Shown piece by piece: positions 12,699-36,025 of a DNA stretch of 64,000 nt; within the stretch, counting starts at the first letter, position 1, and each line of letters begins with the position of its first letter. Both the position numbers and the translations under genes were made by a program. The notes below the pieces were generated by a model that was not told the DNA's origin, searched no databases, and was given only the letters and a program-made list of their open reading frames with translations. This stretch comes from Micromonospora sp. WMMA1363 (GTDB taxonomy: Bacteria > Actinomycetota > Actinomycetes > Mycobacteriales > Micromonosporaceae), in assembly GCF_030345795.1 (NCBI RefSeq), contig NZ_JAUALB010000001.1:2782001-2846000 (forward strand), written 5' to 3'.

Positions 12699-13946
12699 TC
12701 ACCCGTCCGGCGTGAGGGCCGACACCACGTCGCCGATGACGACGATCGCCGGGGGGCGTAGACCGGTTGCGGCCACGTCGTGCGCCACCTCGCCCAGCGT
12801 CGAGCGCAGGGCCCGCTGGGCGCCGGTCGTGCCCTCCTGCACCACCACGGCCGGGGTCGCCGCCGGCCGGCCGTGCGCGACCAGGGTGGCGGCGATCGCG
12901 GGTAGGTTTTTCAGCCCCATCAGGATCACCAGGGTGCCGCGCAACCCCGCCAGGTGCTCCCAGCGCACCAGCGAGTCGGGCGAGTCGGGCGCGACATGCC
13001 CGGACACCACGGTGAATTCGTGCGCCACCGCCCGGTGGGTCACCGGAACACCGGCCGCCGCCGGCACGGCGATCGCGCTCGTCACCCCGGGGACCACCGT
13101 GACCGGTACGCACGCCTCGGCGCAGGCCAGCAACTCCTCGCCGCCACGGCCGAAGACGTACGGGTCGCCGCCCTTCAGCCGGACGACGACCTTCCCGGCC
13201 AGCGCCCGGTCGACCAGGATGCGGTTGATCTCCTCCTGTGCCCGGGACGGGCCGTAGGGAATCTTGGAGGCGTCGACCAGTTCGACGTCCGGACGCAGTT
13301 CGTCCAGGAGCAGCCCGGGCACGAGCCGGTCGGCGACCACCACGTCCGCCTCGGTGAGCAGTCGCCACCCCTTCACGGTGATCAGCTCCGGGTCGCCCGG
13401 CCCAGCCCCGACGAGCGCCACGCGTCCGGCCCCAGGGGCGACAGCAGCGGCCCCCTCGTCGACCGTGGTCGTCCGGGTGGGGCTCGGCCGGGCGCCCAGG
13501 AGTTCACGGATGGCGTCGCGGACGGTCATCGCGCGGTGCGGGTCGCCGCCGCCGAGGACGGCCACCGTCACCGGGCCGCTCCGGGTGACCGCCGGCGTCC
13601 AGGCCGTCGCGGCCGCCCGGTCATCGGCCCGGACGCAGAAGACCCGCCGCTCGGCGGCGGCCGCGCTGACCGACGCGGCGGCCACCGGGTCATCGACCGC
13701 CACCTGGACCAGCCACGCGCCGTCGAGATCGTCCGCGGCGAACCGGCGCCGGGCCCAGTGCAGCCGGCCGGCGTCGACGTGGGACCGCAGCGCCGGGGTC
13801 AACTCCGGTGCGACCAGGAAGACGTCCGCGCCCGCGTCGAGCAGCGCCGGCACCCGGCGGGTCGCGACCGCTCCCCCGCCCACCACGACAACGCGTCGGC
13901 CGGCGAGGCGCAGACCGAGCGGGTACGGGCTGGTCCGCTCGGTCAC
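12699..13946 (-). CDS. cobA: Uroporphyrinogen-III C-methyltransferase with CysG-type N-terminal domain
   Basis: A 415-residue fusion. Residues about 1-150 form a precorrin-2 dehydrogenase-like NAD-binding domain (VVVVGGGAVATRRVPALL). Residues about 160-400 form the SAM-dependent methyltransferase, with LVGAGPGDPELITVKG, VVVRLKGGDPYVFGRGGEE and VVPGVTSAIAVPA. It methylates uroporphyrinogen III twice to precorrin-2, the branch point to sirohaem and cobalamin. GTG at 13946 overlaps the cobT stop by four bases; gene order cobC-cobT-cobA makes a cobalamin role most likely, but supply of sirohaem is equally possible. Confidence 0.93.
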   Translation of the reverse strand: MTERTSPYPLGLRLAGRRVVVVGGGAVATRRVPALLDAGADVFLVAPELTPALRSHVDAGRLHWARRRFAADDLDGAWLVQVAVDDPVAAASVSAAAAERRVFCVRADDRAAATAWTPAVTRSGPVTVAVLGGGDPHRAMTVRDAIRELLGARPSPTRTTTVDEGAAAVAPGAGRVALVGAGPGDPELITVKGWRLLTEADVVVADRLVPGLLLDELRPDVELVDASKIPYGPSRAQEEINRILVDRALAGKVVVRLKGGDPYVFGRGGEELLACAEACVPVTVVPGVTSAIAVPAAAGVPVTHRAVAHEFTVVSGHVAPDSPDSLVRWEHLAGLRGTLVILMGLKNLPAIAATLVAHGRPAATPAVVVQEGTTGAQRALRSTLGEVAHDVAATGLRPPAIVVIGDVVSALTPDG

Positions 13947-15013
13947 TTCTCGGCCACTCCCGCCGAGTCGAAGGTGGCCACCTCGTGCAACACCCGTACC
14001 GCACCGGTGACCACCGGCAACGCCAGCAGCGCCCCGGTGCCCTCGCCGAGGCGCAACCCGAGGTCGATCAGCGGGGTCAGCCCGAGGTGGCGCAGTGCCA
14101 CCGTGGCGCCCGGTTCCGCCGAACGGTGCCCGGCGACCATGGCGCCGGTGGCGTGCGGTGCGAAGGCCGCGGCGGCCAGGGCGGCGGAGACCGCGATCAC
14201 GCCGTCCAGCAGCACCGGGACGCGCCGCGCCGCGGCGCCCAGGATCAGCCCGGCCAGGGCCGCGTGCTCCAGACCTCCGACGGCGGCCAGTACGCCCAGC
14301 GGATCGGCCGGGTCGGGGCCGTGCCGGCGCAGCGCGGTCGCGACCATCTCGATCTTGTGCCGGTAGGTGGGGTCGTCGACCCCGGTGCCCCGGCCGGTCG
14401 CCTCGGTGGCGTCCACTCCCACGAAGGCCGCGATCAGGGCAGCGGCCGGTGTGGTGTTGCCGATGCCCATGTCCCCGGTGAGCAGGATGGCGGCCCCGGC
14501 GTCGACCAGTTCCCCGGCGACCCGGATCCCGGTCTCGACCGCGGCCCGGGTCTCGTCCCGGGTCAGCGCGGCGCCGAGCGTCATGTCCCGGGTGCCGCGT
14601 CGTACGTTCGCCTCGACCAGTCGCGGCGCCGGTCCGGTGCCCGCACCGGCCACCGGCGCCGTGGCGACCCCGACGTCCACCACGGTGACCGAGGCGCCGG
14701 CCTGCCGGGCGAACGCGTTGACCACCGCCCCGCCGGCCAGGAAGTTGCCGATCATCTGGGCGGTGACCTCCTGCGGCCATGGAGTCACGCCCTGGGCGTG
14801 CACGCCGTGGTCACCGGCGAAGATGGCCACGGCGGCCGGTTCGGGCAGCGGCGGCGGGCAGGTCCCGGCCAGACCGGCGAGGCGTACGGAGAGCTCCTCC
14901 AGGGCACCGAGCGAGCCGGCGGGCTTGGTGAGCCGGGCCTGCCGGTCCCGGGCGTCGGCCATCGCCCGCTCGTCGAGCCGTCCGATCGCCGCGATCGTCG
15001 TGTCCAGCATCAT
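13943..15013 (-). CDS. cobT: Nicotinate-nucleotide--dimethylbenzimidazole phosphoribosyltransferase
   Basis: A 356-residue cytosolic enzyme that makes alpha-ribazole phosphate, the lower-ligand precursor of cobalamin. Landmarks are LTKPAGSLGALEEL, VAIFAGDHGVHAQGV, GDMGIGNTTPAAAL and the C-terminal LRLGEGTGALLAL, whose Glu is the catalytic base in the family. Two ATG codons in a row (15013, 15010) are possible starts; the first overlaps the cobC stop in an ATGA and follows a ggagg. Confidence 0.95.
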   Translation of the reverse strand: MMLDTTIAAIGRLDERAMADARDRQARLTKPAGSLGALEELSVRLAGLAGTCPPPLPEPAAVAIFAGDHGVHAQGVTPWPQEVTAQMIGNFLAGGAVVNAFARQAGASVTVVDVGVATAPVAGAGTGPAPRLVEANVRRGTRDMTLGAALTRDETRAAVETGIRVAGELVDAGAAILLTGDMGIGNTTPAAALIAAFVGVDATEATGRGTGVDDPTYRHKIEMVATALRRHGPDPADPLGVLAAVGGLEHAALAGLILGAAARRVPVLLDGVIAVSAALAAAAFAPHATGAMVAGHRSAEPGATVALRHLGLTPLIDLGLRLGEGTGALLALPVVTGAVRVLHEVATFDSAGVAEK

Positions 15014-16161
15014 GCCTCCAGGATCTCCGCAAGTACCTCGGTGAAAGCGTCGGTGGTCGCCGGGTCGCGGACGGCGACCCGTAGCCAGTCCGGGCCGAGC
15101 CCGGGAAACGTGTCGCCGCGGCGTACCGCCCAGCCGCGCTCGCGCAGTGTGGCTCGCACGGCGGCGGCGCCGGGCAGGTGAAGCAGCACGAAGGCGCTGG
15201 CTGGCCGGCCGGCGACGCGTACCCCCGGCAGCGCCGTCAGGCGTGCGACCAGGTGGTCGCGGTCGGCGGCGAGGCGCGCGGCGATCTCGCGCTCAGCCTC
15301 GATCGCCTCGGGCGCGGCGCAGGCCGCGGCGGCGGCCAGCGCCGGGCTCGAGACCGCCCACAGCGGCTGCACGGCGGCGAGCCGGTCCAGCAGGGCGGCC
15401 TCGCCGAGCAGGTAGCCGACCCGCAGCCCGGCCAGCCCCCAGGTCTTGGTGAGGCTCCGGACGACCAGCAAACCCGGCAGGTCGCGTCGGCCGGCGAACG
15501 ATTCCGGCTCGCCGGGCGCCCCCGGCGCGGTGGTGGTGTCGGCGAACGCCTCGTCGATGACGAGAACCCGCCCCGGCCGAGCCAGCGTGGCCAGGTCGAC
15601 GGCGGGGTGCAGCACCGAGGTCGGGTTGGTCGGGTTGCCGACCATGACCAGGTCGGCGTCCGCGGGGATCCGGCCGGGGTCGAGCCGGAACCCCGCGCCT
15701 GGGTCGAGCAGCACATGCTCGACCTGGTGCCCCGCCGCCCGCAGGGCGACCTCCGGCTCGGTGAACTGGGGATGCACGACCACCGGGCGGCGGGCCCCGC
15801 GCAGCGCCTGCGCGATCAGCACGAAGCCCTCGGCGGCGCCGGAGGTCAGCAGCACCTCGGCCGGGGGGCGCCCGTGCCGGGCGGCGACGGCGGCCCGCGC
15901 CGGCCTCGGGTCCGGGTACGCGGCCAGGTCGTCGAGCGCCGCGGTGATCGGGGCCGCCAGCCAGTCGGGCATCGGGGCTCGGCGCACGTTGACGGCGAGG
16001 TCGACCAGGCCCGGGGTGGCCTCGGCGTCGCCGTGGTGCCGGAGGTCGGGCTCGGCAGTGGCGTGCCCGCCGGTGGCGGGGGCGCGACCGGGCGGGCCGG
16101 CGGGGGCACCGGGTCGGGTGCGGATCGCGCCGGGGCATGCCTCGATCGGCTGAGCACACAT
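15010..16161 (-). CDS. cobC: CobC-like PLP aminotransferase-fold enzyme (threonine-phosphate decarboxylase type)
   Basis: A 383-residue fold-type I PLP enzyme related to histidinol-phosphate aminotransferase. The Schiff-base lysine sits in RSLTKTWGLAGLRVGY; MVGNPTNPTSVLHP and VLVIDEAFAD are the PLP-binding motifs. In cobalamin operons this family makes (R)-1-amino-2-propanol phosphate for the nucleotide loop; its position directly before cobT supports that over histidine synthesis. ATG at 16161 is chosen; a longer frame to 16272 runs into the AT-rich promoter region. No cobalamin riboswitch signature is visible upstream. Confidence 0.85.
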   Translation of the reverse strand: MCAQPIEACPGAIRTRPGAPAGPPGRAPATGGHATAEPDLRHHGDAEATPGLVDLAVNVRRAPMPDWLAAPITAALDDLAAYPDPRPARAAVAARHGRPPAEVLLTSGAAEGFVLIAQALRGARRPVVVHPQFTEPEVALRAAGHQVEHVLLDPGAGFRLDPGRIPADADLVMVGNPTNPTSVLHPAVDLATLARPGRVLVIDEAFADTTTAPGAPGEPESFAGRRDLPGLLVVRSLTKTWGLAGLRVGYLLGEAALLDRLAAVQPLWAVSSPALAAAAACAAPEAIEAEREIAARLAADRDHLVARLTALPGVRVAGRPASAFVLLHLPGAAAVRATLRERGWAVRRGDTFPGLGPDWLRVAVRDPATTDAFTEVLAEILEA

Positions 16162-16283
16162 GAGCGCGATCCTGCCGGGAAGGAGGCGTGCGGGACAGCG
16201 AAACACGGCGTGGGCCACATCACGAGCCATCGCGTTTATGAATATTTCTCGGATATTAACGGGAATTATCATAACTTGATGAG
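16162..16283. promoter_or_regulatory. AT-rich divergent promoter region cobC / PBP
   Basis: A pocket at 16235-16282 is far richer in A and T than its surroundings. It contains the short inverted repeat aatat-N7-atatt (about 16241-16257) and a -10-like tatcat at about 16267, some 15 bases before the GTG of the PBP gene, so the PBP transcript may have a very short leader. The inverted repeat could be an operator shared by the two divergent operons. Confidence 0.45.
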
Positions 16284-18416
16284 GTGAGCAACCGACCCCT
16301 TGCCGCCGCTGCTCGTCTCGTCCCTCTCCTCCGTGCCGGACTGATCGCCGGCATCGTGGTCGCCGCCGTGGCCTATCCCGTCGCCGCCGCCACCGGCATC
16401 GGCGCCAAGGTCACCGCGCACGCGCTGGAGCACAAGACGAAGATCCTCACCACCGCTCTGCCCGCCGAGACGTCGTACTTGTACGCACCGGACGGAAAGA
16501 CCGTGCTGACGATGTTCTACGAGGAGTACCGGCAGTACACGAAGCTCGCCGACATGTCACCGAACATCCAGCAGGCGATCGTGGCAGCCGAGGACGCCCG
16601 CTTCTGGCAGCACCACGGGGTCGACCCCAAGGGCGTCGCCCGCGCCTTCGTGGCCAACGCCCGGTCCAGCGGCGTCTCCCAAGGCGCGTCGACGCTGACC
16701 ATGCAGTACGTCCGGATGGCCCTGCGGGACAGCGCGACGACACCGAAGGAGGTGCAGGAGGCGACCCAGCAGACCAGCCTCCGCAAGATCCGGGAGATGC
16801 GGATGGCCCTGGACCTCGAGGAGGAGCTGAGCAAGGAGCAGATCCTGGAGCGCTACCTCAACTCCGCGTACTTCGGACACCGCGCCTACGGCATCTACGC
16901 CGCCAGCGAGATCTTCTTCTCCAAGACCCCGAAGGACCTCACACCGGTCGAGGCCGCCACGCTCGCCGGGCTGGTGAAGTCACCGTCGCAGTACGACCCG
17001 GCCAGCTCCGACCAGCAGGACGCCACCGCGCGCCGCAACTACGTGCTGGACCGGATGACCCAGCTCGGCTACCTCTCGGCGGACGCCGCCACCGCCGCCA
17101 GGTCCGAGCCGATCCGCCTGCGGCTGAGCTACCCGTCCAACGACTGCGCCTCGGTGCCGGAGAAGTGGAACAGCTGGGGCTTCGCCTGCGACTACCTGAA
17201 GAACTGGTGGAGCGCCCAGCCCGCCTTCGGCAGCAACCGGCTGGAGCGGATGGACAAATTACGCCGGGGCGGATACCGGATCGTGCTCAGCCTCGACCCG
17301 AAGATCCAGGACGCGGCCGAGAAGAACGTCGGCGCCAAGGCGAACACCGGCAGCCCGTTCGCCAACGGCATCGTGGTCACGGAGCCCGGCACCGGGCGGG
17401 TCAAGGCCATGGCGGTGAACCGGACGTACTCGCTGAACGTGGACGACAACCCGCTCAGCTCCAACCCGGAGGCGGGGCCGAAGGTCAAGGCCAACTACCC
17501 GAACACGGTGGCACCCCTGCTCGGCGGCGGCGACCTGCCGGGCTACCAGGCCGGGTCGACGTTCAAGATGTTCCCGCTGCTCGCCGCACTCGACGCCGGA
17601 ATGCCCCTCAACACCACCTTCAACGCGCCACACCGGTACCGGTCGGAGGTCTACAACGGCTGGGCGCCGTCGAACGCCAGCGGTGCGATGTCCGGCACCC
17701 AGACGATGTGGTCCGGCTTCGGCAAGTCGGTGAACACGTACTTCGTCTGGCTGGAGGAGCAGGTCGGGGCGGACAAGGCGGTGCGCCTGGCCGAGCAGCT
17801 GGGCCTGCGCTGGCGGACCGACGTGGACCGGGAACACGCGGCCCCGGCGAAGGCGAAGACGTGGGGCGCGTTCACCCTGGGCGTCTCCGACGCCACCCCA
17901 CTGGAGATGGCCAACGCGTACGGCGCCGTGGCGGCGGAGGGCCGGTACTGCGAGGCGATCCCGGTGCAGGGCATCTACAACCGGGACGGCACCCCGGCGA
18001 TGTACCGGACCACCGCCGGGATCGAACGGGAGATCGCCAAACCGCGTTGCCGCCAGGTGGTCAGCGCCGACGCCGCCCGGGCGGCCACCGACGCCGCCCG
18101 GTGCCCCACCGGCGACACCCCGGCGAAAGGCAGCTGTGGGGGCTGGTCGACGGCGGACAGCGTCCGGGGCACGGTCGGCCGCCCCGTCGCCGGCAAGACC
18201 GGTACCACGGACAGCACCCGATCGGCCTGGTTCGTCGCATTCACCCCGGAGTTGGCGGCGGCCAGCTTCATCTCGGACCCGGACAACCCGTTCAACGCGG
18301 TCGGTGACGGCCAGTCCCAGATCCCGATCCAGGCGGTCGGGAACACCCTGAAGGAAGCCCTCAAGGGCAAGCCCAACCGCGATTTCACCCCACCGTCGGA
18401 CGCGATCGTCGGCTGA
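16284..18416 (+). CDS. Bifunctional penicillin-binding protein (class A PBP)
   Basis: A 710-residue membrane-anchored peptidoglycan polymerase. One N-terminal transmembrane helix lies at about residues 15-38. The GT51 glycosyltransferase domain (about 70-260) has the catalytic Glu in AAEDARFWQHHG, then GASTLTMQYVRM. The transpeptidase domain (about 330-680) shows the S-x-x-K motif in AGSTFKMF, S-x-N in GKSVNTYF and K-T-G in AGKTGTTD. No PASTA repeats follow; the protein ends soon after the transpeptidase domain. GTG at 16284 is directly preceded by gatgag. It polymerises and cross-links cell wall outside the membrane. Confidence 0.95.
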   Translation: MSNRPLAAAARLVPLLRAGLIAGIVVAAVAYPVAAATGIGAKVTAHALEHKTKILTTALPAETSYLYAPDGKTVLTMFYEEYRQYTKLADMSPNIQQAIVAAEDARFWQHHGVDPKGVARAFVANARSSGVSQGASTLTMQYVRMALRDSATTPKEVQEATQQTSLRKIREMRMALDLEEELSKEQILERYLNSAYFGHRAYGIYAASEIFFSKTPKDLTPVEAATLAGLVKSPSQYDPASSDQQDATARRNYVLDRMTQLGYLSADAATAARSEPIRLRLSYPSNDCASVPEKWNSWGFACDYLKNWWSAQPAFGSNRLERMDKLRRGGYRIVLSLDPKIQDAAEKNVGAKANTGSPFANGIVVTEPGTGRVKAMAVNRTYSLNVDDNPLSSNPEAGPKVKANYPNTVAPLLGGGDLPGYQAGSTFKMFPLLAALDAGMPLNTTFNAPHRYRSEVYNGWAPSNASGAMSGTQTMWSGFGKSVNTYFVWLEEQVGADKAVRLAEQLGLRWRTDVDREHAAPAKAKTWGAFTLGVSDATPLEMANAYGAVAAEGRYCEAIPVQGIYNRDGTPAMYRTTAGIEREIAKPRCRQVVSADAARAATDAARCPTGDTPAKGSCGGWSTADSVRGTVGRPVAGKTGTTDSTRSAWFVAFTPELAAASFISDPDNPFNAVGDGQSQIPIQAVGNTLKEALKGKPNRDFTPPSDAIVG

Positions 18417-18434: not shown

Positions 18435-19847
18435 TCACGCGGGAACCCCACCGGCCCGGGCATCCGCCGGCGCCACCCGCACGGCCGCCGCGACCAGCCG
18501 GGAGGCCAGCCCCGGGTACCCGGCCCAGTGCAGCGTGAGCTGCGAGGCGTGCACCCCTCGCCAGACGAAACCCTCGGGCGCACCGCCCGCCCAACTCCAC
18601 GCCGGCCGCTGCCCAGCCCGGGGCGTGAGCACCGCCCGGTGCTCCTTGTGCCCGGTCACCGTCGCGCCGGTCGCCGCGACGACACTGTCGGCGCCGGCGG
18701 TCGCGGTGCGGTACCCCACCACCAGGCCGTCCCGTCCCCGGCCGACCGCGTCCAGCACCCCGCACATCGGCATGCCGTCCAACTCCCGGGCCAGCCACAG
18801 CAGGCCGGCGCCCTCGGCGACGACCGGACGGTCGGTGCGGGCCAGCTCGGCCACGGCGATGCAGAGTCGACGGTTGGCCGACAGCCGCTCGGCGTACGAC
18901 TCGGGCAGGCCACCCCCGATGACCAGTGCCCGGGTGCCGACCGGCAACGTCTCGTCGTGCAGCGGATCCACCGTCACCACCTCGGCACCGGCCGCCCGCA
19001 ACAGCTCCGCCGTCTCGGGGTGGCTGTAGCTGGCGCCGGCACCACCGGCGACCACGATCAGCGGTCGCTCGCCGGGCGACGGGGACGGCGGCTCCGGGAC
19101 GGCCGCCGGCTCGGTCTCCGGCGACCAGGGTGGCGCCGTCAACGGCGGGGCGGAGCGGGCGAGCGCCAGCAGCCGGTCCAGGTCGACGGTCGCGGCCACC
19201 GCCTCACCGAGCCGACGAACCGCCCGGTCGGCCTCGGCGGAGGCGGTGACCACCGGCACCGTCCCGTACCGCCGGGCCGGCAGGATCGGCGGCAGGTCCT
19301 GCCGCCGCAACGCGCCGTAGACCGGTACGCCGACGTCGTCCAACGCGTCGCGCAGCAGCTCCTCGTGCCGCTCGGAGCCGACCCGGTTGAGGATCACGCC
19401 AGCCAGCCAGAGCTGCTCGTCGTACGCCCGGAAACCGTGCACCAGGGCAGCCACCGACTGCCCCATCGCGGCCACGTCGACCACCAGCACGACCGGGCTG
19501 CGCAGCGCGGTGGCGACCGCCGCGGTCGACTCGCTCTCCGGCCGGCCGGTCAGCGAGTCGTACAGCCCCATGCTGCCCTGGACCACGGCGAGCCCAGCGC
19601 CGGCGGCCCCGTGGGCGAACAGCGGGGCGATCCGGTCCGCGCCGACCAGCCGCGGGTCCAGCGTGCGCCCTGGCCGCCCGGCGGCGAGCCCGAGGTACGC
19701 GCTGTCGACCCGATCCGGCCCGACCTTGAAGCCGGCGACCGGCAGATCCCGGTCGGCGAGCGCGGCGAGCACCCCGATCGCCAGCAGGTTCGTCCCATGC
19801 CCGGAAGACGGCGCGCTGAGCACCAGACGCGGCAGGACGGTCATCAT
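18435..19847 (-). CDS. cobB: CobB-like cobyrinate a,c-diamide synthase homologue with altered active sites
   Basis: A 470-residue protein aligned along its length with CobB/CbiA, which amidates cobyrinate side chains a and c using ATP and glutamine. Matching landmarks include FKVGPD (41-45), RPGRTLDP, SVAALVHGF, GVILNRVGSERHEELLR, VIGGGLPE and GVHAS near the end. Key residues differ: the P-loop reads APSSGHGTN (residues 12-20) with Thr19 where Lys is expected; residue 90 is Gln instead of Glu in the (E)GxMGLYD motif; and the glutaminase nucleophile is Gly346 (VAEGAGLLWL) where the family has Cys. I confirmed these codons on the minus strand (Gly346 is ggc). The start may be ATG 19847 or 19844. 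It may be non-catalytic or use another ammonia source. Confidence 0.85.
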   Translation of the reverse strand: MMTVLPRLVLSAPSSGHGTNLLAIGVLAALADRDLPVAGFKVGPDRVDSAYLGLAAGRPGRTLDPRLVGADRIAPLFAHGAAGAGLAVVQGSMGLYDSLTGRPESESTAAVATALRSPVVLVVDVAAMGQSVAALVHGFRAYDEQLWLAGVILNRVGSERHEELLRDALDDVGVPVYGALRRQDLPPILPARRYGTVPVVTASAEADRAVRRLGEAVAATVDLDRLLALARSAPPLTAPPWSPETEPAAVPEPPSPSPGERPLIVVAGGAGASYSHPETAELLRAAGAEVVTVDPLHDETLPVGTRALVIGGGLPESYAERLSANRRLCIAVAELARTDRPVVAEGAGLLWLARELDGMPMCGVLDAVGRGRDGLVVGYRTATAGADSVVAATGATVTGHKEHRAVLTPRAGQRPAWSWAGGAPEGFVWRGVHASQLTLHWAGYPGLASRLVAAAVRVAPADARAGGVPA

Positions 19848-20009
19848 CGGCTCCCTCGCGGGCGGCGGGTACGCGGGGTGGACCGACGGCGCGGTCCTGC
19901 GTGACGATAGCGGACCGGGCCGGCCGGGGAACGGCACCGGACCCGCCGGCCGCGCCGAGCCGGGGTCGCCCGGACCGGCGGCCCGGGTCATCCGGGTAAC
20001 CTCGTGGTC

Positions 20010-20822
20010 GTGTACCGGTTCCTCCTGACGCCGCGCTGGCTGGGCGCGCTCGCGCTGACCCTGGTCGTGGCTGCGGCGATGGTGCTGCTGGGCAACTGGC
20101 AGCTGGACCGGTACCACGACCGCACGGAGATCAACGAACGCATCGACGCCGGCCTGCGGATGACGCCGGTGCCGCTGCGCGACGCGGTGGCGGCCCCAGC
20201 CGGGGGCGCGGGCCGCGTGGGGCCACCGCCCGCCGACGAGGAGACCTGGACAAAGGTCACCGTGACCGGCCGGTACGACCAGTCGAACGTGGTCCTGGTC
20301 CGGGGCCGCTCGGTGGACCGGACGGTCGGCTTCGAGATACTGACCCCGCTGGTCCTCACCGACGGCACGGCCGTACTGGTCGACCGGGGCTGGATCCCGC
20401 CGGCCCCCGGCGGTGACGCGACCGCCCAACCGGTCGTGCCCCCGGCACCCGCCGGTGAGGTGACCGTGACGGGCCGGGTCCGCACCGGCGAGGGAGGCTC
20501 GGTTCCGGTCAACCGGCGCCACGGCAAGCTGGAGACCCGCCGGATCGACCTGCCGCGGCTGGCCCGCGAGCTGCCCTATCCGGTGCACGGCGGGTACGTG
20601 CTGCTCGACGAGCAGACGCCGGCGGCCGACCCGGCCTTCACCGCGATCCCGGTCGGGTACACCAACAACTGGCAGAGCTTCGGATACGTCGTCCAGTGGT
20701 GGATCTTCGCGGGGATGACCCTGTTCGGCTACGGCTTCTTCGCCCGCCGGGAGGCCCGCCGGCGGGTTGGCGGGTTGGCCGAGCGCCCCACCGACCGCGC
20801 GGCCGAGAGCGCTCCGGCCTGA
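20010..20822 (+). CDS. SURF1 family protein
   Basis: A membrane protein of 270 residues with one hydrophobic helix near the N-terminus (WLGALALTLVVAAAMVLLG, about 8-28) and another near the C-terminus (VVQWWIFAGMTLFGYGFF, about 225-245), with the SURF1 extracytoplasmic domain between them. Family marks are LGNWQLDRYHDR, ETWTKVTVTGRYD, VLVDRGWIPP and the C-terminal NNWQSFGYVVQW. SURF1 helps assemble cytochrome c oxidase, probably in haem a insertion. GTG at 20010 gives the usual V/MYRFLLTPRW start; GTG at 20004 is also possible. It is divergent from cobB. Confidence 0.92.
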   Translation: MYRFLLTPRWLGALALTLVVAAAMVLLGNWQLDRYHDRTEINERIDAGLRMTPVPLRDAVAAPAGGAGRVGPPPADEETWTKVTVTGRYDQSNVVLVRGRSVDRTVGFEILTPLVLTDGTAVLVDRGWIPPAPGGDATAQPVVPPAPAGEVTVTGRVRTGEGGSVPVNRRHGKLETRRIDLPRLARELPYPVHGGYVLLDEQTPAADPAFTAIPVGYTNNWQSFGYVVQWWIFAGMTLFGYGFFARREARRRVGGLAERPTDRAAESAPA

Positions 20823-25545: not shown

Positions 25546-27171
25546 TCACCGCGCCGCCGGCACGGCCGGATCACCCTGGCCGGGCGCCCCCGCTGCCGCG
25601 GGAACGGGATCGAGCACCGCCTCCGACGGCCAGCCGGTGGGCGCGCCGGGCGGGAGGAACGGGAGGTCGGCCGGCGGGCCGCACTCGACCAGGCGCCACA
25701 GGGCGTCGGTGTCCAGGTGCTCCTCGACCAGGTCGCCCAGCAGGTCCAGCGAACGTTCCCGGGCGGCGGCGAACGAGGTGTCCGGGGCGACCCGGAAGCC
25801 GTCGCGTCCGGCCTGCCGGGCCGCCTCGGTCAGGAACCGGCGCCGGAAGTCGTCGGACTCGAAGGCACCGTGCCAGTGCGTCCCGTACACCGCACCGGCC
25901 ACCGCGCCCTCCCCGACGCCGTCCGCGTACGCCAGCAGCGGAGCGAGGCCGGAGTCGGCGAACGAGACGTGCCCGTGGTGGATCTCGTAGCCGTGGACCG
26001 GGACGTCCCCCCACGCCGTTCCGGCCACCTGCCGGACGGTCTTGCGCGGGTCGAAGGTGACCTCGATCGGCAGCAGGCCGAGGCCGGGTACGCTGCCCCG
26101 CCGACTCTCCACCGCGTCGTTGATCGTCCGCGCCAGCATCTGAAACCCGCCGCAGACGCCGAGTAGCGGCCTACCGGCGGCAGCGTGGGTCAGCACAGCG
26201 TCGGCGAGCCCGGTCTCCCGCAGCCAGGCGAGATCCGCCACGGTCGACTTCGAGCCGGGCAGGACGACCAGGTCGGCCGCGGCCAGCTCAGCCGGTTCCA
26301 CGGTCAGCCGGACCCGCACGCCCGGCTCGGTCGCGAGCGCCTCGACGTCGGTGGCGTTGCTGATCCGGGGCAACCGGACCACCGCGACGTCCAGCCACTG
26401 GGTGCCGCGCGGAGCGGCCGGGCGGCCCAGCACCCGCCCATACGCGAGTGAGTCCTCCGCGTCCAGCCAGAGGTCGAGTGACCAGGGCAGCACCCCGTAG
26501 GTGGGCCGCCCGGTGACCTGGCGCAGCATGTCCAGACCGGGCCGGAGCAGGCCGCGGTCACCCCGGAACTTGTTGATGACGAAGCCGGCGACCAAAGCCT
26601 GGTCAGCCGGTTCCAGCAGGGCGACCGTGCCGAACATCGAGGCGAACACCCCACCCCGGTCGATGTCGCCGACAACGACCGTGGGCAGGTTGGCGTGCCG
26701 GGCCAGCCCCATGTTGACGTAGTCGCCAGCCCGCAGGTTGATCTCCGCGGGGCTGCCCGCGCCCTCGCAGACCACCACGTCGTAAGCCGCCCGCAGCTCG
26801 GCTAGCGCCGTGTACGCGGTCTCGGCGAGCCGGGGCCGCAGCTGCCGGAAGGAGCCTGCGGTGATGGTGTCGACCGCCTCCCCGAGCAGCACCACCTGGC
26901 TTGCCAGGTCACTGCCCGGCTTGAGCAGCACGGGATTGAACCGCAGGTCCGGCGCGAGCCCGCAGGCCGCCGCCTGCATCGCCTGCGCCCGCCCGATCTC
27001 CCCACCCCGCCCGTCCGCGCCGACCACAACGGCCGAGTTGTTGGACATGTTCTGCGCCTTGAACGGCGCCACCCGCACGCCCCGCCGGTGCAGCCAGCGG
27101 CAGATGCCGGCGGTGACGACACTCTTGCCGGCGTCGGAGGTGGTGCCGGCCACCAGCAGCCCGCCGCTCAC
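25546..27171 (-). CDS. cobQ: Cobyric acid synthase
   Basis: A 541-residue glutamine amidotransferase that amidates side chains b, d, e and g of adenosylcobyrinic diamide. The synthetase domain has an intact P-loop, [11 protein letters not shown], and [13 protein letters not shown]; the glutaminase domain has its Cys in [11 protein letters not shown] and the His in THWHGAFES. In contrast to cobB in this window, all these residues are normal. GTG at 27171 overlaps the cobD stop by four bases. The C-terminus carries about 60 Pro/Ala/Gly-rich extra residues. Confidence 0.95.
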
Positions 27172-28220
27172 CGCCCACTCCCCCCGCCGGTCGCGCGGAC
27201 GGCGGCAGGCCGCCGCCGACTCCGGACGCCGAGCCCCGCCGTGATCCGGCGGACGGCGGCACCGACCAGGCGGCCGACCGTCAGCGGGTAGGCCGCCGCG
27301 ACCCCGAGCGCGGCGAGCCCGACGGCACCGGAGACCCGGGCCGCCCGGGGAAGGTGCCGGGCATCCGGACGCGGCCCGTCCCCGAGGAAGGGGCGCACCT
27401 CGGAGCGGCCGAAGTAGACGTTGTGCCCCCCGAGGCGGACACCCAGTGTCCCGGCCATGGCTGCCTCGCACTGCCCGGCGTTGGGACTGGGATGGTCGTT
27501 TCGGTCACGGTGCCAGATCCGCCAGGCCCGCTCCGGGTCGCCGTGCACGACGGGTGCGACGGCGACCGTCAGCAGCCCGGTCAACCGGGATGGTACGAGG
27601 TTGAGCAGGTCGTCGAGGCGGGCGGCGGGTGTGCCGAACCGGGCGTACCGGGGCGCGCGGTGGCCGACCATGGCGTCGAGGGTGTTCGTCGCGCGGTACC
27701 CGAGCAGACCGGGCAGCCCGGCGACCGCACCCCAGAGCAGCGGGGCGACGACCGCGTCAGAGGTGTTCTCGGCAACCGACTCGACGGTGGCGCGGGCCAG
27801 TTCGGGTTCGTCCAGCGCTGACGGGTCCCGCCCGCAGAGGTGACCGAGGCGCTGCCGGGCCGCCGGCAGGTCACCGCGGCGCAGCGCCCGGCCCATCACC
27901 GCGGACTCCTGCCGGAGCGTACGCCCGCCCAGCACCGTCCACGTGCCGGCGGCCACCAGGACGGCTCGGGTCCATGGCCGTCCCCGGGTGGCGACCGTGG
28001 CCGCCGCACCCAGCAGCACCGGCGCGCCCACCGCCACCGCCGTGTAGGCCGCACCGGCGGCCCGGTCGGGCCGGTACATCCGCCGCTCCAGGGCACCGGC
28101 CGCGCGTCCGAACCCGGCCACCGGGTGCCACCGGCGCGGGTCGCCCACCAGCGCGTCCAGCGCGTATCCCGCGACGAGACCCGCCGCCGTCGCCACCGCC
28201 GTCGCCTGCCGCACCGGCAT
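27168..28220 (-). CDS. cobD: Adenosylcobinamide-phosphate synthase
   Basis: A membrane protein of about 350 residues of the CobD/CbiB family, which joins aminopropanol (or its phosphate) to adenosylcobyric acid. Marks are [47 protein letters not shown] and [15 protein letters not shown]. Several hydrophobic helices are spread along the protein. The Arg-rich C-terminal tail is unusual but short. Starts GTG 28223 and ATG 28220 are adjacent to ggagg. Confidence 0.94.
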
Positions 28221-28635
28221 CACCTCCGGCGCGCCAGCCTAACCGAGCCCCACCCCCTCACCTCCCGCCCGCCGCCCACTCCGAACGCCCCGGCACCGCC
28301 GACCACTGTCCCTCCTGGCACACGCCGACCGCTGCCCGTCTTGCCTTGCGAGGATGAGATATGGATCGCCGACCCGGCACGCCGCTACGGCGGCCAACGC
28401 ACCGTATCCGATCTTGGTGGTGAACACGCCCGTCCTGGTGGTGACCACACCCCGGCGGCCGACGCGTGGGGTGACGGCGCCACACCACCACCCCACCCCC
28501 GTCGCACCACCGCCGGGCCCCTCCACCGCCTGGCCACGCCGACCAGCCCCGGACCGGGCCCGCCGAGACCGGTGTCGGGGCCCAGCCGGAGCCGGGCCCG
28601 CCCGGAGCAAGGACCTGATCAGACCGGCGTCGGCA
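28221..28635. other. 415-bp gap between cobD and ssb
   Basis: I see no supported gene here. It should hold the cobD-cobQ promoter, but the conserved boxes of a cobalamin riboswitch are not visible on the minus strand. A 21-bp imperfect direct repeat lies at 28412-28453. A minus-strand frame through the repeat (VVTTRTGVFTTKIGYGA) is short and unlike known families. Confidence 0.5.
28412..28453. repeat. Imperfect 21-bp direct repeat
   Basis: Two adjacent units, tcttggtggtgaacacgccc and tcctggtggtgaccacaccc, differ at four or five positions. They sit in a gene-free gap upstream of cobD. Confidence 0.6.
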
Positions 28636-32282: not shown

Positions 32283-32800
32283 GTGCTTCCGATGACCCTG
32301 CAAGAGATCACGACCGTCGTCGGCGGAACCGTCCACGACGCTACGCAGGGCGTCACCGTGACCGCACCAGTCGTAGCCGGTGCGTCGAGGCCGGCGGGAT
32401 GTACGTGGCGCTGCCCGGTGAGCGCGTCGATGGGCACGACTACGCCGCCGAGGCGATCGAGGCCGGGGCGGCGGCGGTGCTGGCCTCGCGGCCGGTTGGC
32501 GTGCCGGCGGTGGTCGTCGAGGACGTACCCACCGCCTACGGCCGCCTTGCCCGCGCAGTGGTGGACCGGCTGCCGCAGACCACCGTGATCGGGGTGACCG
32601 GCTCGGTGGGCAAGACGTCGACCAAGGACGTCCTTGCCCAGGTGCTGCCGACGTGGGGTGCCACGGTGGCCAACCGGGCGTCGAACAACAACGAGCTTGG
32701 GTTGCCGTACACGGTCACCCGCGCCACCGCCAACACCCGCTATCTGGTGTTGGAGATGGGCGCACGTGGCATCGGGCACGTGGCCTACCTGACCCGCATC
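32283..32800 (+). pseudogene. murF: murF fragment: frameshifted and cut by an IS element
   Basis: The first part (GTG at 32283, frame 3: [20 protein letters not shown]) and the next part (from about 32378, frame 2: [20 protein letters not shown]) are consecutive pieces of UDP-MurNAc-tripeptide:D-Ala-D-Ala ligase, separated by a small deletion where the DSR motif should be. The ATP-binding site follows ([16 protein letters not shown]), then [14 protein letters not shown] and [17 protein letters not shown]. Homology ends abruptly at 32800, the IS border, about 170 codons into a normally 450-plus-residue enzyme. The missing part is not found beyond the IS elements. A functional murF is expected elsewhere in the dcw cluster. 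Confidence 0.88.
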
Positions 32801-32842
32801 TGGGGTTGACCCGGTTTGACGGACAGGGTCGGTAAGTTGATC

Positions 32843-33739
32843 TCACGCTACCTTGCTCGTTGGCCTGCGGGAATAGGCCGTCGCCTCATACTCGGCCGGG
32901 CTCATGTAGTCCAGGGTGGAATGGCGGCGGCGGGTGTTGTACCACCCCTCGATCCACTCGAAGATCGCCGCACGGGCGGCGGCCCGGGTCGGCCACGCCC
33001 TCCGGTCGAGCAGTTCGGTCTTGATCGTGGCGAAGAACGACTCCGCGACGGCGTTGTCCCAGCACTGACCCCGCCCACCAACCGACAACCGCACCCCGTT
33101 GCGGTCGGCCAGCCGGGCGTACTGCGCACTCGTGTACTGGCAACCCCGGTCGCTGTGGAAGATCACCGGCCCGGTCGGGCGTCGGACGGCGATCGCGTTG
33201 GACAACGCCTGAGCGGGCAGATCGGTCCGTAGGTGGTCGGCGGTCGCCCAGCCCACAACCCGGCGTGAGGCGATGTCGATGACGGTGGCGAGGTACAGCC
33301 AGCCCTCCCACGTGTGGATGTAGGTGATGTCGCCGCACCAGCGGGTGTCGACCCGGCCGGCGGCGACGTCGAAGTCCCGGCGGATCAGGTCCGCCGACAA
33401 CGCCGCCCCCGGGTCGGGCACGGTCGTGGTGCGCCACCGCTTCGGCGTGCGGCCGCACAACCCGGCGCCCCGCATCAGCCGGGCGACCCGCTTGCCGGAG
33501 TGCCGCCGCCCCTGGGCGGCGAGTTCGGCGCGGACCCGGGGTGCGCCGTAGGTGCCGGCCGAGTCGGCGTGGATCTGCGCGATGCGGGCGGCGAGGTCTG
33601 CGTCGTCGCGTTCCCGCCGCGACGGCCCGGCACGGTGCTGGTAGTAGGCGGACCGGGAGACCTCCAGCAGCTCACAGGAACGCTTCACGTTCCCGTCGGG
33701 CCGCGCCTTCTCCGCCTCGATGAACGGGTACACGTTCAC
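32843..33739 (-). CDS. IS3-family transposase OrfB (copy A)
   Basis: The 298-residue integrase-fold catalytic protein. An N-terminal HTH_21-type region (SRSAYYQHRAGPSRRERDD) is followed by the DDE core: first Asp in CGDITYIHTWEGW, second in FHSDRGCQYTS, Glu in CWDNAVAESFFATIKTELL, ending RRRHSTLDYMSPAEYE. GTG at 33739 overlaps the orfA stop by four bases; the frame is also open upstream to 33898, so an OrfAB fusion by -1 frameshift is possible. The translation is identical to that of copy B. Confidence 0.95.
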   Translation of the reverse strand: MNVYPFIEAEKARPDGNVKRSCELLEVSRSAYYQHRAGPSRRERDDADLAARIAQIHADSAGTYGAPRVRAELAAQGRRHSGKRVARLMRGAGLCGRTPKRWRTTTVPDPGAALSADLIRRDFDVAAGRVDTRWCGDITYIHTWEGWLYLATVIDIASRRVVGWATADHLRTDLPAQALSNAIAVRRPTGPVIFHSDRGCQYTSAQYARLADRNGVRLSVGGRGQCWDNAVAESFFATIKTELLDRRAWPTRAAARAAIFEWIEGWYNTRRRHSTLDYMSPAEYEATAYSRRPTSKVA

Positions 33740-34047
33740 CGGGTCTCCCTCACGAAGAAAGCCGTGGCCCGTTTCAGGATGTCGACGTCCTCGCGGAGCC
33801 GGCGGTTCTCCCGCCGCAGCCGCGCCAGCTCGTCGCGCTCGTCGCTGGTCAACCCGTCGCTGCGGGTGCCGGCGTCGATGTCGGCCTGCCTGACCCACTC
33901 ACGGACCGCGGTCTCGGTCAGGTCGAAGTCCCTCACGACCTGCGCCACCGATCGGTCACCCCGCCGGCACACCTCGACGATCTCCGCCTTGAACTCCGGC
34001 GTGAACGCTCTGCGCGGCCGGCGTGGTTTCTTGCCCATGCCTTCCAT
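33736..34047 (-). CDS. IS3-family OrfA (copy A)
   Basis: A 103-residue DNA-binding protein with a Tnp/HTH_8-type motif (AFTPEFKAEIVEVCRRG, then SVAQVVRDFDLTETAVREW) and a leucine-zipper-like C-terminal helix (LARLRRENRRLREDVDILKRA). ATG at 34047 lies nine bases after gggagg. Confidence 0.93.
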   Translation of the reverse strand: MEGMGKKPRRPRRAFTPEFKAEIVEVCRRGDRSVAQVVRDFDLTETAVREWVRQADIDAGTRSDGLTSDERDELARLRRENRRLREDVDILKRATAFFVRETR

Positions 34048-34116
34048 GATGAACATCCTCCCGAGGAGCACACAGCCCCTCTGAGCTGGGATGTCCGTCA
34101 AACCGGGTCAGGCCCA

Positions 34117-34751: not shown

Positions 34752-34820
34752 TGGGCCTGACCCGGTTTGACGGACATCCCAGCTCAGAGGGGCTGTGTGC
34801 TCCTCGGGAGGATGTTCATC

Positions 34821-35132
34821 ATGGAAGGCATGGGCAAGAAACCACGCCGGCCGCGCAGAGCGTTCACGCCGGAGTTCAAGGCGGAGATCGTCGAGGTGTG
34901 CCGGCGGGGTGACCGATCGGTGGCGCAGGTCGTGAGGGACTTCGACCTGACCGAGACCGCGGTCCGTGAGTGGGTCAGGCAGGCCGACATCGACGCCGGC
35001 ACCCGCAGCGACGGGTTGACCAGCGACGAGCGCGACGAGCTGGCGCGGCTGCGGCGGGAGAACCGCCGGCTCCGCGAGGACGTCGACATCCTGAAACGGG
35101 CCACGGCTTTCTTCGTGAGGGAGACCCGGTGA
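34821..35132 (+). CDS. IS3-family OrfA (copy B)
   Basis: Identical in translation to the copy A protein (103 residues): N-terminal HTH for binding the terminal repeats and a C-terminal zipper helix. The ATG lies nine bases after gggagg; the stop overlaps the orfB GTG. Confidence 0.93.
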   Translation: MEGMGKKPRRPRRAFTPEFKAEIVEVCRRGDRSVAQVVRDFDLTETAVREWVRQADIDAGTRSDGLTSDERDELARLRRENRRLREDVDILKRATAFFVRETR

Positions 35133-36025
35133 ACGTGTACCCGTTCATCGAGGCGGAGAAGGCGCGGCCCGACGGGAACGTGAAGCGTTCCTGTGAGCTG
35201 CTGGAGGTCTCCCGGTCCGCCTACTACCAGCACCGTGCCGGGCCGTCGCGGCGGGAACGCGACGACGCAGACCTCGCCGCCCGCATCGCGCAGATCCACG
35301 CCGACTCGGCCGGCACCTACGGCGCACCCCGGGTCCGCGCCGAACTCGCCGCCCAGGGGCGGCGGCACTCCGGCAAGCGGGTCGCCCGGCTGATGCGGGG
35401 CGCCGGGTTGTGCGGCCGCACGCCGAAGCGGTGGCGCACCACGACCGTGCCCGACCCGGGGGCGGCGTTGTCGGCGGACCTGATCCGCCGGGACTTCGAC
35501 GTCGCCGCCGGCCGGGTCGACACCCGCTGGTGCGGCGACATCACCTACATCCACACGTGGGAGGGCTGGCTGTACCTCGCCACCGTCATCGACATCGCCT
35601 CACGCCGGGTTGTGGGCTGGGCGACCGCCGACCACCTACGGACCGATCTGCCCGCTCAGGCGTTGTCCAACGCGATCGCCGTCCGACGCCCGACCGGGCC
35701 GGTGATCTTCCACAGCGACCGGGGTTGCCAGTACACGAGTGCGCAGTACGCCCGGCTGGCCGACCGCAACGGGGTGCGGTTGTCGGTTGGTGGGCGGGGT
35801 CAGTGCTGGGACAACGCCGTCGCGGAGTCGTTCTTCGCCACGATCAAGACCGAACTGCTCGACCGGAGGGCGTGGCCGACCCGGGCCGCCGCCCGTGCGG
35901 CGATCTTCGAGTGGATCGAGGGGTGGTACAACACCCGCCGCCGCCATTCCACCCTGGACTACATGAGCCCGGCCGAGTATGAGGCGACGGCCTATTCCCG
36001 CAGGCCAACGAGCAAGGTAGCGTGA
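35129..36025 (+). CDS. IS3-family transposase OrfB (copy B)
   Basis: Identical in translation to copy A (298 residues), with an intact DDE triad in CGDITYIH, FHSDRGCQYT and DNAVAESFF. Nothing in the sequence suggests inactivation, so the element could still be mobile. Confidence 0.95.
   Translation: MNVYPFIEAEKARPDGNVKRSCELLEVSRSAYYQHRAGPSRRERDDADLAARIAQIHADSAGTYGAPRVRAELAAQGRRHSGKRVARLMRGAGLCGRTPKRWRTTTVPDPGAALSADLIRRDFDVAAGRVDTRWCGDITYIHTWEGWLYLATVIDIASRRVVGWATADHLRTDLPAQALSNAIAVRRPTGPVIFHSDRGCQYTSAQYARLADRNGVRLSVGGRGQCWDNAVAESFFATIKTELLDRRAWPTRAAARAAIFEWIEGWYNTRRRHSTLDYMSPAEYEATAYSRRPTSKVA

Follow-up and report, generated by a model that had tools for sequence, protein, structure and literature searches.

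Can a protein of the CobB family still amidate cobyrinate once the active-site residues of both its domains have been replaced and, if it cannot, what is it kept for? The question is raised by a CobB-like protein of 470 aa, labelled here CobB*, that is encoded from an ATG start on the minus strand (19847..18435) of the window, the whole stretch of 64,000 nucleotides from Micromonospora sp. WMMA1363 that was analysed. The features of the locus are collected in Table 1.

Table 1. Features of the CobB* locus, with positions in the window.
Feature	Position	Strand	Basis
cysG/cobA-type uroporphyrinogen-III methyltransferase with N-terminal CysG-type domain	12699..13946	-	profile match
cobT	13943..15013	-	profile match
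cobC (Rv2231c family, NF005915); adjoins intact cobB in other families	15010..16272	-	profile match
PBP1A-family penicillin-binding protein (PBP), convergent, between CobB* and cobC	16284..18416	+	profile match
CobB* (CobB-like, lacking glutaminase Cys, Walker Lys and Glu90), 470 aa	18435..19847	-	ORF and clade tree
QLTLHW, residues 436-441, versus canonical YLHxHW	18525..18542	-	alignment
GHKEHRAVL, residues 399-407, versus canonical GHEFHRT	18627..18653	-	alignment
Codon 346: Gly replaces glutaminase Cys	18810..18812	-	translation and alignment
Codon 90: Gln replaces Glu	19578..19580	-	translation and alignment
Retained K41-V-G-P-D45-x-x-D48 motif (canonical KVGPDYID); K41, D45, D48 in 140/140 CobB*	19704..19727	-	alignment
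Degenerate P-loop SSGHGTN, residues 14-20; K19 to T, T20 to N	19788..19808	-	translation and alignment
Conserved promoter-like box CTATCGTCACGC between SURF1 and CobB*	19899..19910	-	30 upstream regions aligned
SURF1-family gene, divergent neighbour upstream of CobB*	20004..20822	+	profile match and locus comparison
cobQ, P-loop and Cys intact	25546..27171	-	profile match and alignment
cbiB (cobD)	27168..28223	-	profile match

Altered residues in the window and an intact CobB elsewhere in the genome

At the level of profiles CobB* is an ordinary member of its family. It exceeds the Pfam gathering scores of PF01656 (45.2, cut-off 25.4) and PF07685 (37.9, cut-off 27), matches the CobB equivalog NF002204 with 345.9 bits (cut-off 254) and falls narrowly under the cut-off of TIGR00379 (257.4 versus 261.4). 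Its motifs read SSGHGTN (Lys19 to Thr, Thr20 to Asn), VVQGSMGLYD (Glu90 to Gln) and VAEGAGLLWL (Cys346 to Gly), so the initial annotation, which had numbered the changed residues Thr19, Gln90 and Gly346, was right about all three. It had also named what could undo the observation: a Lys or Cys at a neighbouring position, or a sequencing error. The alignments have no such residue nearby, and the two closest relatives (L112 and L113, 86 and 85% identical) share Thr, Gln and Gly; in the first protein search, the best 120 proteins, the window's own among them, all have Gly346 and Gln90. Sequencing error and misalignment are thus ruled out.

A further position is affected. His438 of the canonical VHASYLH motif is Thr in the window protein and is missing in 140/140 CobB* sequences; it may be the His that serves catalysis in the glutaminase dyad. 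In an automatic profile alignment to CobQ, the CobQ motif falls instead on His440, which 139/140 CobB* sequences keep. The cobQ of the window, described at the outset as normal, does retain its Cys and a GKS P-loop.

A second CobB with GKT and Cys, for which a search had been proposed, is present in the same genome (G000:C1:1068831-1070162). This canonical CobB carries GHGKTT, VIEGVMG, VAECAGL and GHEFHRT and is 53-54% identical to the window CobB*. CbiC is encoded about 6 kb away, and a gene with 31% identity to the cysG of the window directly follows. The best explanation for amidation in producers is that this separate intact CobB, near corrin-ring genes, carries it out.

Other observations on the window and its genome are recorded here in passing. 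The cobC gene is over the NF005915 cut-off but under that of CobD (Thr-P decarboxylase; 248.1 versus 290.55). By eye, two apparently identical IS3-like transposase gene pairs lie in inverted orientation (32843-34071 and 34797-36025), directly after a short MurE/MurF-like N-terminal reading frame (32399-32809). CobS of this genome is found in two overlapping pieces in different frames (G000:C1:2423936-2424648), a possible frameshift or sequencing error.

Spread, order of loss and probable ancestral locus

Both the alignments and a split based on SURF1 reveal that the change is lineage-wide, with altered residues across the relatives of Micromonospora. The named loci, which are the best 80 of 218 relatives from a genome-collection scan, come from Micromonospora (two deposited as Verrucosispora), Plantactinospora, Actinoplanes/Paractinoplanes, Nucisporomicrobium and one 'Micromonosporaceae bacterium', and all 80 have Gly346. 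With further genome stretches included, CobB* was read in 18 genus codes.

We aligned 198 unique sequences, duplicates and those below 380 aa having been removed. Their division into canonical CobB and CobB* used Cys346 and Lys401 themselves, and no sequence stood in between. The 58 canonical sequences have Cys346, Glu90 (58/58), Lys19 (57/58, the remaining one being a gap in a truncated sequence) and His438 (57/58). The other 140, all without Cys346, carry Gly (132), Ser (6) or Asn (2) at that position; Lys19 is kept in 97 of them (Thr in 42, Arg in 1) and Glu90 in 45 (Gln in 92, Lys, Ala and Gly in 1 each), while K41, D45, D48, D97, D124 and H403 are invariant in 140/140. Around D48, canonical Y-I-D-P is replaced mostly by H/Q-V/T-D-A. 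As a split independent of the two defining residues, we used adjacency to SURF1, which lies directly upstream (<700 bp) in 138/138 CobB* loci with enough flank and in 0/37 canonical loci. All 138 SURF1-adjacent CobB-like genes lack Cys346 and have Lys401; away from SURF1, 37/37 have Cys346 and 0/37 have Lys401.

Lys401 is not absolute, being Gln in one Stackebrandtia protein and replaced by a few other residues among the listed proteins. A second protein listing contributed 116 new proteins, 111 of them without Cys346; a Cryptosporangium CobB is among the five that have it. The changes are absent from the 15 non-family loci read (L023, L024, L026-L030 and L205-L212), which all have Cys, GKT and Glu. 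In the order-level sample the CobB* profile matches 129/150 genomes, 108 of them from other families. One protein labelled Nonomuraea sp. TT08I-71 (P0026) is 80% identical to the window CobB*, probably because the genome is misnamed.

In the tree, all CobB* sequences fall on one side of a branch with 100/100 support. CobB* is therefore one clade, and the window protein is the local end point of a family-wide paralogue. A deep branch (genus codes g19, g21 and g39; Stackebrandtia-, Actinorhabdospora- and Phytomonospora-type) has GKT, Glu90, Ser346 and Asn/Ser438; Asn346 is found in an Actinocatenispora-like branch, and the remaining CobB* have Gly346. GKT and Glu90 are kept in Actinoplanes and Plantactinospora. 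In Micromonospora, leaving out sp. HM5-17, which groups with Plantactinospora in the tree, Glu90 has become Gln in 58/58 named loci and 43/43 unique g1 sequences, Thr20 is replaced in 56/58 and 43/43, and Lys19 in 25/58 and 21/43, respectively. Glu90 is also lost in two other lineages, L163 (Lys) and the sister sequences L173 (Ala) and L192 (Gly). As read from these residues, the glutaminase was lost first and the ATP site later, in Micromonospora, with Glu lost elsewhere as well.

The gene order offers a view of the starting point. In family code f13, which the motifs of P0214 suggest to be Cryptosporangium-like, an intact CobB is found in the order cobB-cobC-cobT-cysG-otsB-otsA (L249, L250). 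The window matches this order, with CobB* in the place of cobB and the PBP gene between CobB* and cobC. In other families, too, an intact cobB adjoins cobC or is fused with it (L026, L028, L030, L211, L212), and in L166 and L167 cobC comes after CobB* with other reading frames, and no detected PBP gene, between them. CobB* thus looks as if it sits at the old cobB site, the intact CobB of the family lying elsewhere. A sister-group relation of CobB* to the syntenic f13 CobB was neither supported nor rejected (p-AU 0.37), so descent from an f13-type locus rests on gene order.

The neighbourhood is stable among relatives, although the counts are not independent, most loci being from few genera. 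SURF1 is divergent in 134 loci and codirectional in 4 (L159-L162, Stackebrandtia-type). The PBP gene follows CobB* in 111/132 loci, and of the CobB* loci whose downstream flank reaches 3.3 kb or more, 70/70 have cobC downstream; all 70 are among the best 80 of 218 relatives, the deep branches being outside this count. In the named loci CobB* is near cobT, cysG, cobQ and cobC, the last in 79/80 (best 80 of 218). Upstream of CobB*, a Shine-Dalgarno-like AGGAG and a TATcGTCACGC box are conserved in the 30 regions aligned. A sigma-70 consensus scan of the upstream region gave no match, including at the promoter-like box, and no cobalamin riboswitch scored over the gathering score within the window.

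Conservation and co-occurrence with the B12 pathway

The view that CobB* is not a decaying pseudogene was borne out. It is full-length in 102/121 Micromonospora genomes, and its median pairwise pN/pS among 57 named Micromonospora loci is 0.353, compared with 0.310 for canonical CobB (n=23), 0.333 for cobC, 0.284 for cobT, 0.213 for cobQ and 0.460 for SURF1, all by simple pairwise counting with no codon model. A value of 0.35 indicates purifying selection on CobB*. The divergence of the glutaminase relative to the synthetase domain is 1.15 for CobB* and 1.16 for canonical CobB over all sequences, and 1.13 and 1.83 within Micromonospora alone, so the comparison of domains depends on the set used.

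The predicted fold of CobB* is intact (pLDDT 91.7), and the best structural matches of the model are dethiobiotin synthetase and GatD, the latter for the C-terminal half; a sequence search for a solved CobB structure found none. With the fold kept, as predicted, and catalytic residues lost across a conserved clade, we infer that CobB* is a non-amidating pseudoenzyme. The suggestion of the initial annotation that the protein is no longer an amidase very probably holds for glutamine-dependent amidation.

CobB* has long Pro/Gly/Ala/Ser/Gln-rich C-terminal tails in Plantactinospora, Actinoplanes and some other genera (L088-L111, L170, L172, L148), with medians of 306 aa in 4 Plantactinospora-type and 180 aa in 18 Actinoplanes-type sequences and up to 764 aa in L170; the tail is short in Micromonospora and absent in the Stackebrandtia type.

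The distribution of the two proteins was compared in the 121 Micromonospora genomes, using CbiC to mark corrin-ring synthesis. Canonical CobB is present in 70/74 genomes with CbiC and 5/47 without it (a tally that includes two split genes), and full-length CobB* in 58/74 and 44/47, respectively, its state being judged by where the matches lie, how many there are and their best E-values. Canonical CobB follows corrin-ring synthesis; CobB* does not. A weak negative link between CobB* and CbiC (p 0.04) comes from a table that treats genomes as independent and is not to be leaned on. Both proteins occur in 61 genomes, CobB* only in 41 (39 without CbiC; the two with it, G010 and G067, are fragmented assemblies), canonical CobB without full-length CobB* in 14, some with fragments, and neither in full in 5. 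CobQ is over its cut-off in 118/121 genomes, including 46/47 without CbiC, and is thus kept although CbiC is missing in 47/121.

Six loci (G014, G058, G077, G085, G088 and G129) were fetched from the 14 genomes with canonical CobB and without full-length CobB*. In each, CobB* is absent between SURF1 and the PBP gene, which are separated by 58-130 bp as judged by matched ends. CobB* is dispensable in these six genomes. Five CobB*-less genomes (G058, G077, G088, G128 and G129) are all similarly small and could belong to a single clade. Truncated or split copies occur in some genomes, for example L216 from G065.

The family sample of 150 genomes extends the picture to deeper branches. In four of the five g19 genomes (G139, G192, G208 and G219, Stackebrandtia-type), CobB* (L159-L162) is the only CobB-like match; the profile search of this sample found no CbiC, CobS or canonical CobB in them, CobQ did not pass its cut-off (best 50-60 bits) and CobT gave only sub-cut-off matches. 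In the fifth, G175, the sole CobB-like match is weak, but CobQ is present. In G141, G159, G184 and G200, CobB* and CobQ are kept without CbiC, CobS or above-cut-off CobT, the CobB* status of G184 and G200 resting on 61-62% identity.

What CobB* may do

Taken together, our results make it reasonably probable that CobB* is a repurposed, non-amidating ligand-binding protein that is not needed for cobalamin synthesis. A CobB at the old cobB site, beside cobC-cobT, would have been turned to another use. The synthetase domain would still hold a ligand (a carboxylated tetrapyrrole, or a metal or nucleotide) through the invariant K41, D45, D48, D97 and D124, and the dead glutaminase domain may be a fixed structural or docking module. 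CobB* would then work through binding, whether as carrier, sensor or regulatory partner, and apart from cobyrinate amidation. Mutagenesis of D45, D48, E90 and D97 has reportedly been carried out in Salmonella CbiA, and the acidic residues retained in CobB* are reported to be among those important there. Counting against this explanation are the proximity to cobT, cysG, cobQ and cobC in the named loci, which suits a link to cobalamin, the dependence of the domain comparison on the set used, the ATP site outside Micromonospora, and the six loci in which CobB* is missing and its flanks have closed up.

GKT and Glu90 look intact in most CobB* outside Micromonospora, and ATP may therefore still be used by the clade taken as a whole. 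CobB* could have begun as an ATP-dependent ligase that took ammonia or another amine from elsewhere, with a different substrate, Micromonospora having secondarily lost even that. This is unlikely, though we give it some weight: Lys19, Thr20 and Glu90 are intact with the Cys gone in Actinoplanes, Plantactinospora, the Stackebrandtia type and most other genera read, and the residues around D48 are changed through the clade, as a new substrate would suggest. Against it, Glu90 is lost in two other lineages too, and in Micromonospora the ATP-site residues are replaced yet pN/pS is low, so whatever function is conserved in that genus can do without the ligase site. The 'different ATP/ammonia mechanism' of the initial annotation could apply mainly to genera with an intact ATP site.

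A place for CobB* in cobalamin assembly as a subunit without catalysis of its own, paired for instance with CobQ or canonical CobB, seems distinctly improbable. The gene order with cobC, cobT, cobQ and cbiB in the named loci speaks for it, as do the persistence of CobQ in Micromonospora genomes with and without CbiC and the joint retention of CobB* and CobQ in G141, G159, G184 and G200. A partnership with canonical CobB is rejected for the 41/121 genomes in which CobB* is intact and no canonical CobB was found, and an obligate one with CobQ is disfavoured by the four Stackebrandtia-type genomes that have CobB* without above-cut-off CobQ and without CobS. These four genomes, together with the 44/47 Micromonospora lacking CbiC that have CobB*, also weigh against the structural role in the cobalamin machinery that had been proposed initially.

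A bolder reading is a long shot: CobB* and SURF1 as a pair, with CobB* a tetrapyrrole-binding (haem-type) accessory factor in cytochrome oxidase biogenesis. It arises from the adjacency of SURF1 to CobB* (138/138 versus 0/37 for canonical CobB) and from the codirectional order at the four Stackebrandtia-type loci, which belong to genomes without the B12 genes tested. On the other side, SURF1 stays where CobB* is absent, the gene order may be plain inheritance, and SURF1 is a membrane protein facing away from the cytosol.

Slow decay of a redundant copy is very improbable. The stepwise loss of active-site residues, the absence of CobB* with flanks kept in six loci and the truncated or split copies would fit it, but most copies are full-length at a pN/pS of 0.35, invariant positions are common to 18 genus codes, and the ribosome-binding site and upstream box are conserved. 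Least credible of all is that CobB* still works as a cobyrinate a,c-diamide synthase through catalytic residues that have moved. The NF002204 score and the source names, where shown, would favour this, but the alignments place neither Lys nor Cys close to the altered sites, an intact CobB is present as well and goes with the pathway, and CobB* persists without that CobB.

Returning to CobB* itself, its interest is partly practical. Where source names are shown, CobB* is called cobyrinate (or hydrogenobyrinate) a,c-diamide synthase, and since it is without residues that this reaction requires, predictions of the B12 pathway are misleading when they include it. In the 41 Micromonospora genomes with CobB* only, 39 of them without CbiC, it is the only CobB-like protein found. 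It is widespread in the Micromonosporaceae as defined by GTDB, Stackebrandtia included, its locus preserves a readable stepwise loss of an active site, Cys first and Glu and Lys later, repeatedly, and it is a good case for asking why a dead amidotransferase is kept. The paralogue is undescribed in the titles and abstract openings of the literature searched, a body that leaves most subscription journals outside. What seems to be new is a family-wide conserved, putative pseudo-amidotransferase of the CobB family carrying, where source names are shown, the name of an active enzyme.

With CobB/CbiA (NF002204, TIGR00379, PF01656 and PF07685), CobB* shares the two-domain architecture, the retained K41, D45, D48, D97 and D124, and the gene neighbourhood of intact cobB in other families. 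It differs in that the glutaminase Cys is missing clade-wide, GHEFHRT has become GHKxH, the Walker Lys is lost in many copies and Glu90 in all Micromonospora copies read, and there is no tie to corrin-ring synthesis. The bifunctional CobBC fusion (NF053748) gives the best raw NCBIfam score for CobB* (462.8 bits), far under the cut-off of 950; it likewise has CobB near a Rv2231c-type CobC, but CobB* and CobC are separate genes, with the PBP gene between them in the window, and the fused example L030 keeps its catalytic residues, unlike CobB*. The GATase_3 domain is common to CobB*, CobQ and GatD; CobB* lacks the Cys of the Cys/His dyad that PMC5871853 gives for the CobB, CobQ and GatD glutaminases. 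Plant PDX1.2, presented in PMC6829848 as a non-catalytic vitamin-pathway paralogue that regulates vitamin B6 synthesis, would be a parallel. It is, as CobB* would be, a retained pseudoenzyme paralogue of a vitamin-biosynthesis enzyme; CobB* differs in persisting in genomes without the B12 synthesis genes looked for.
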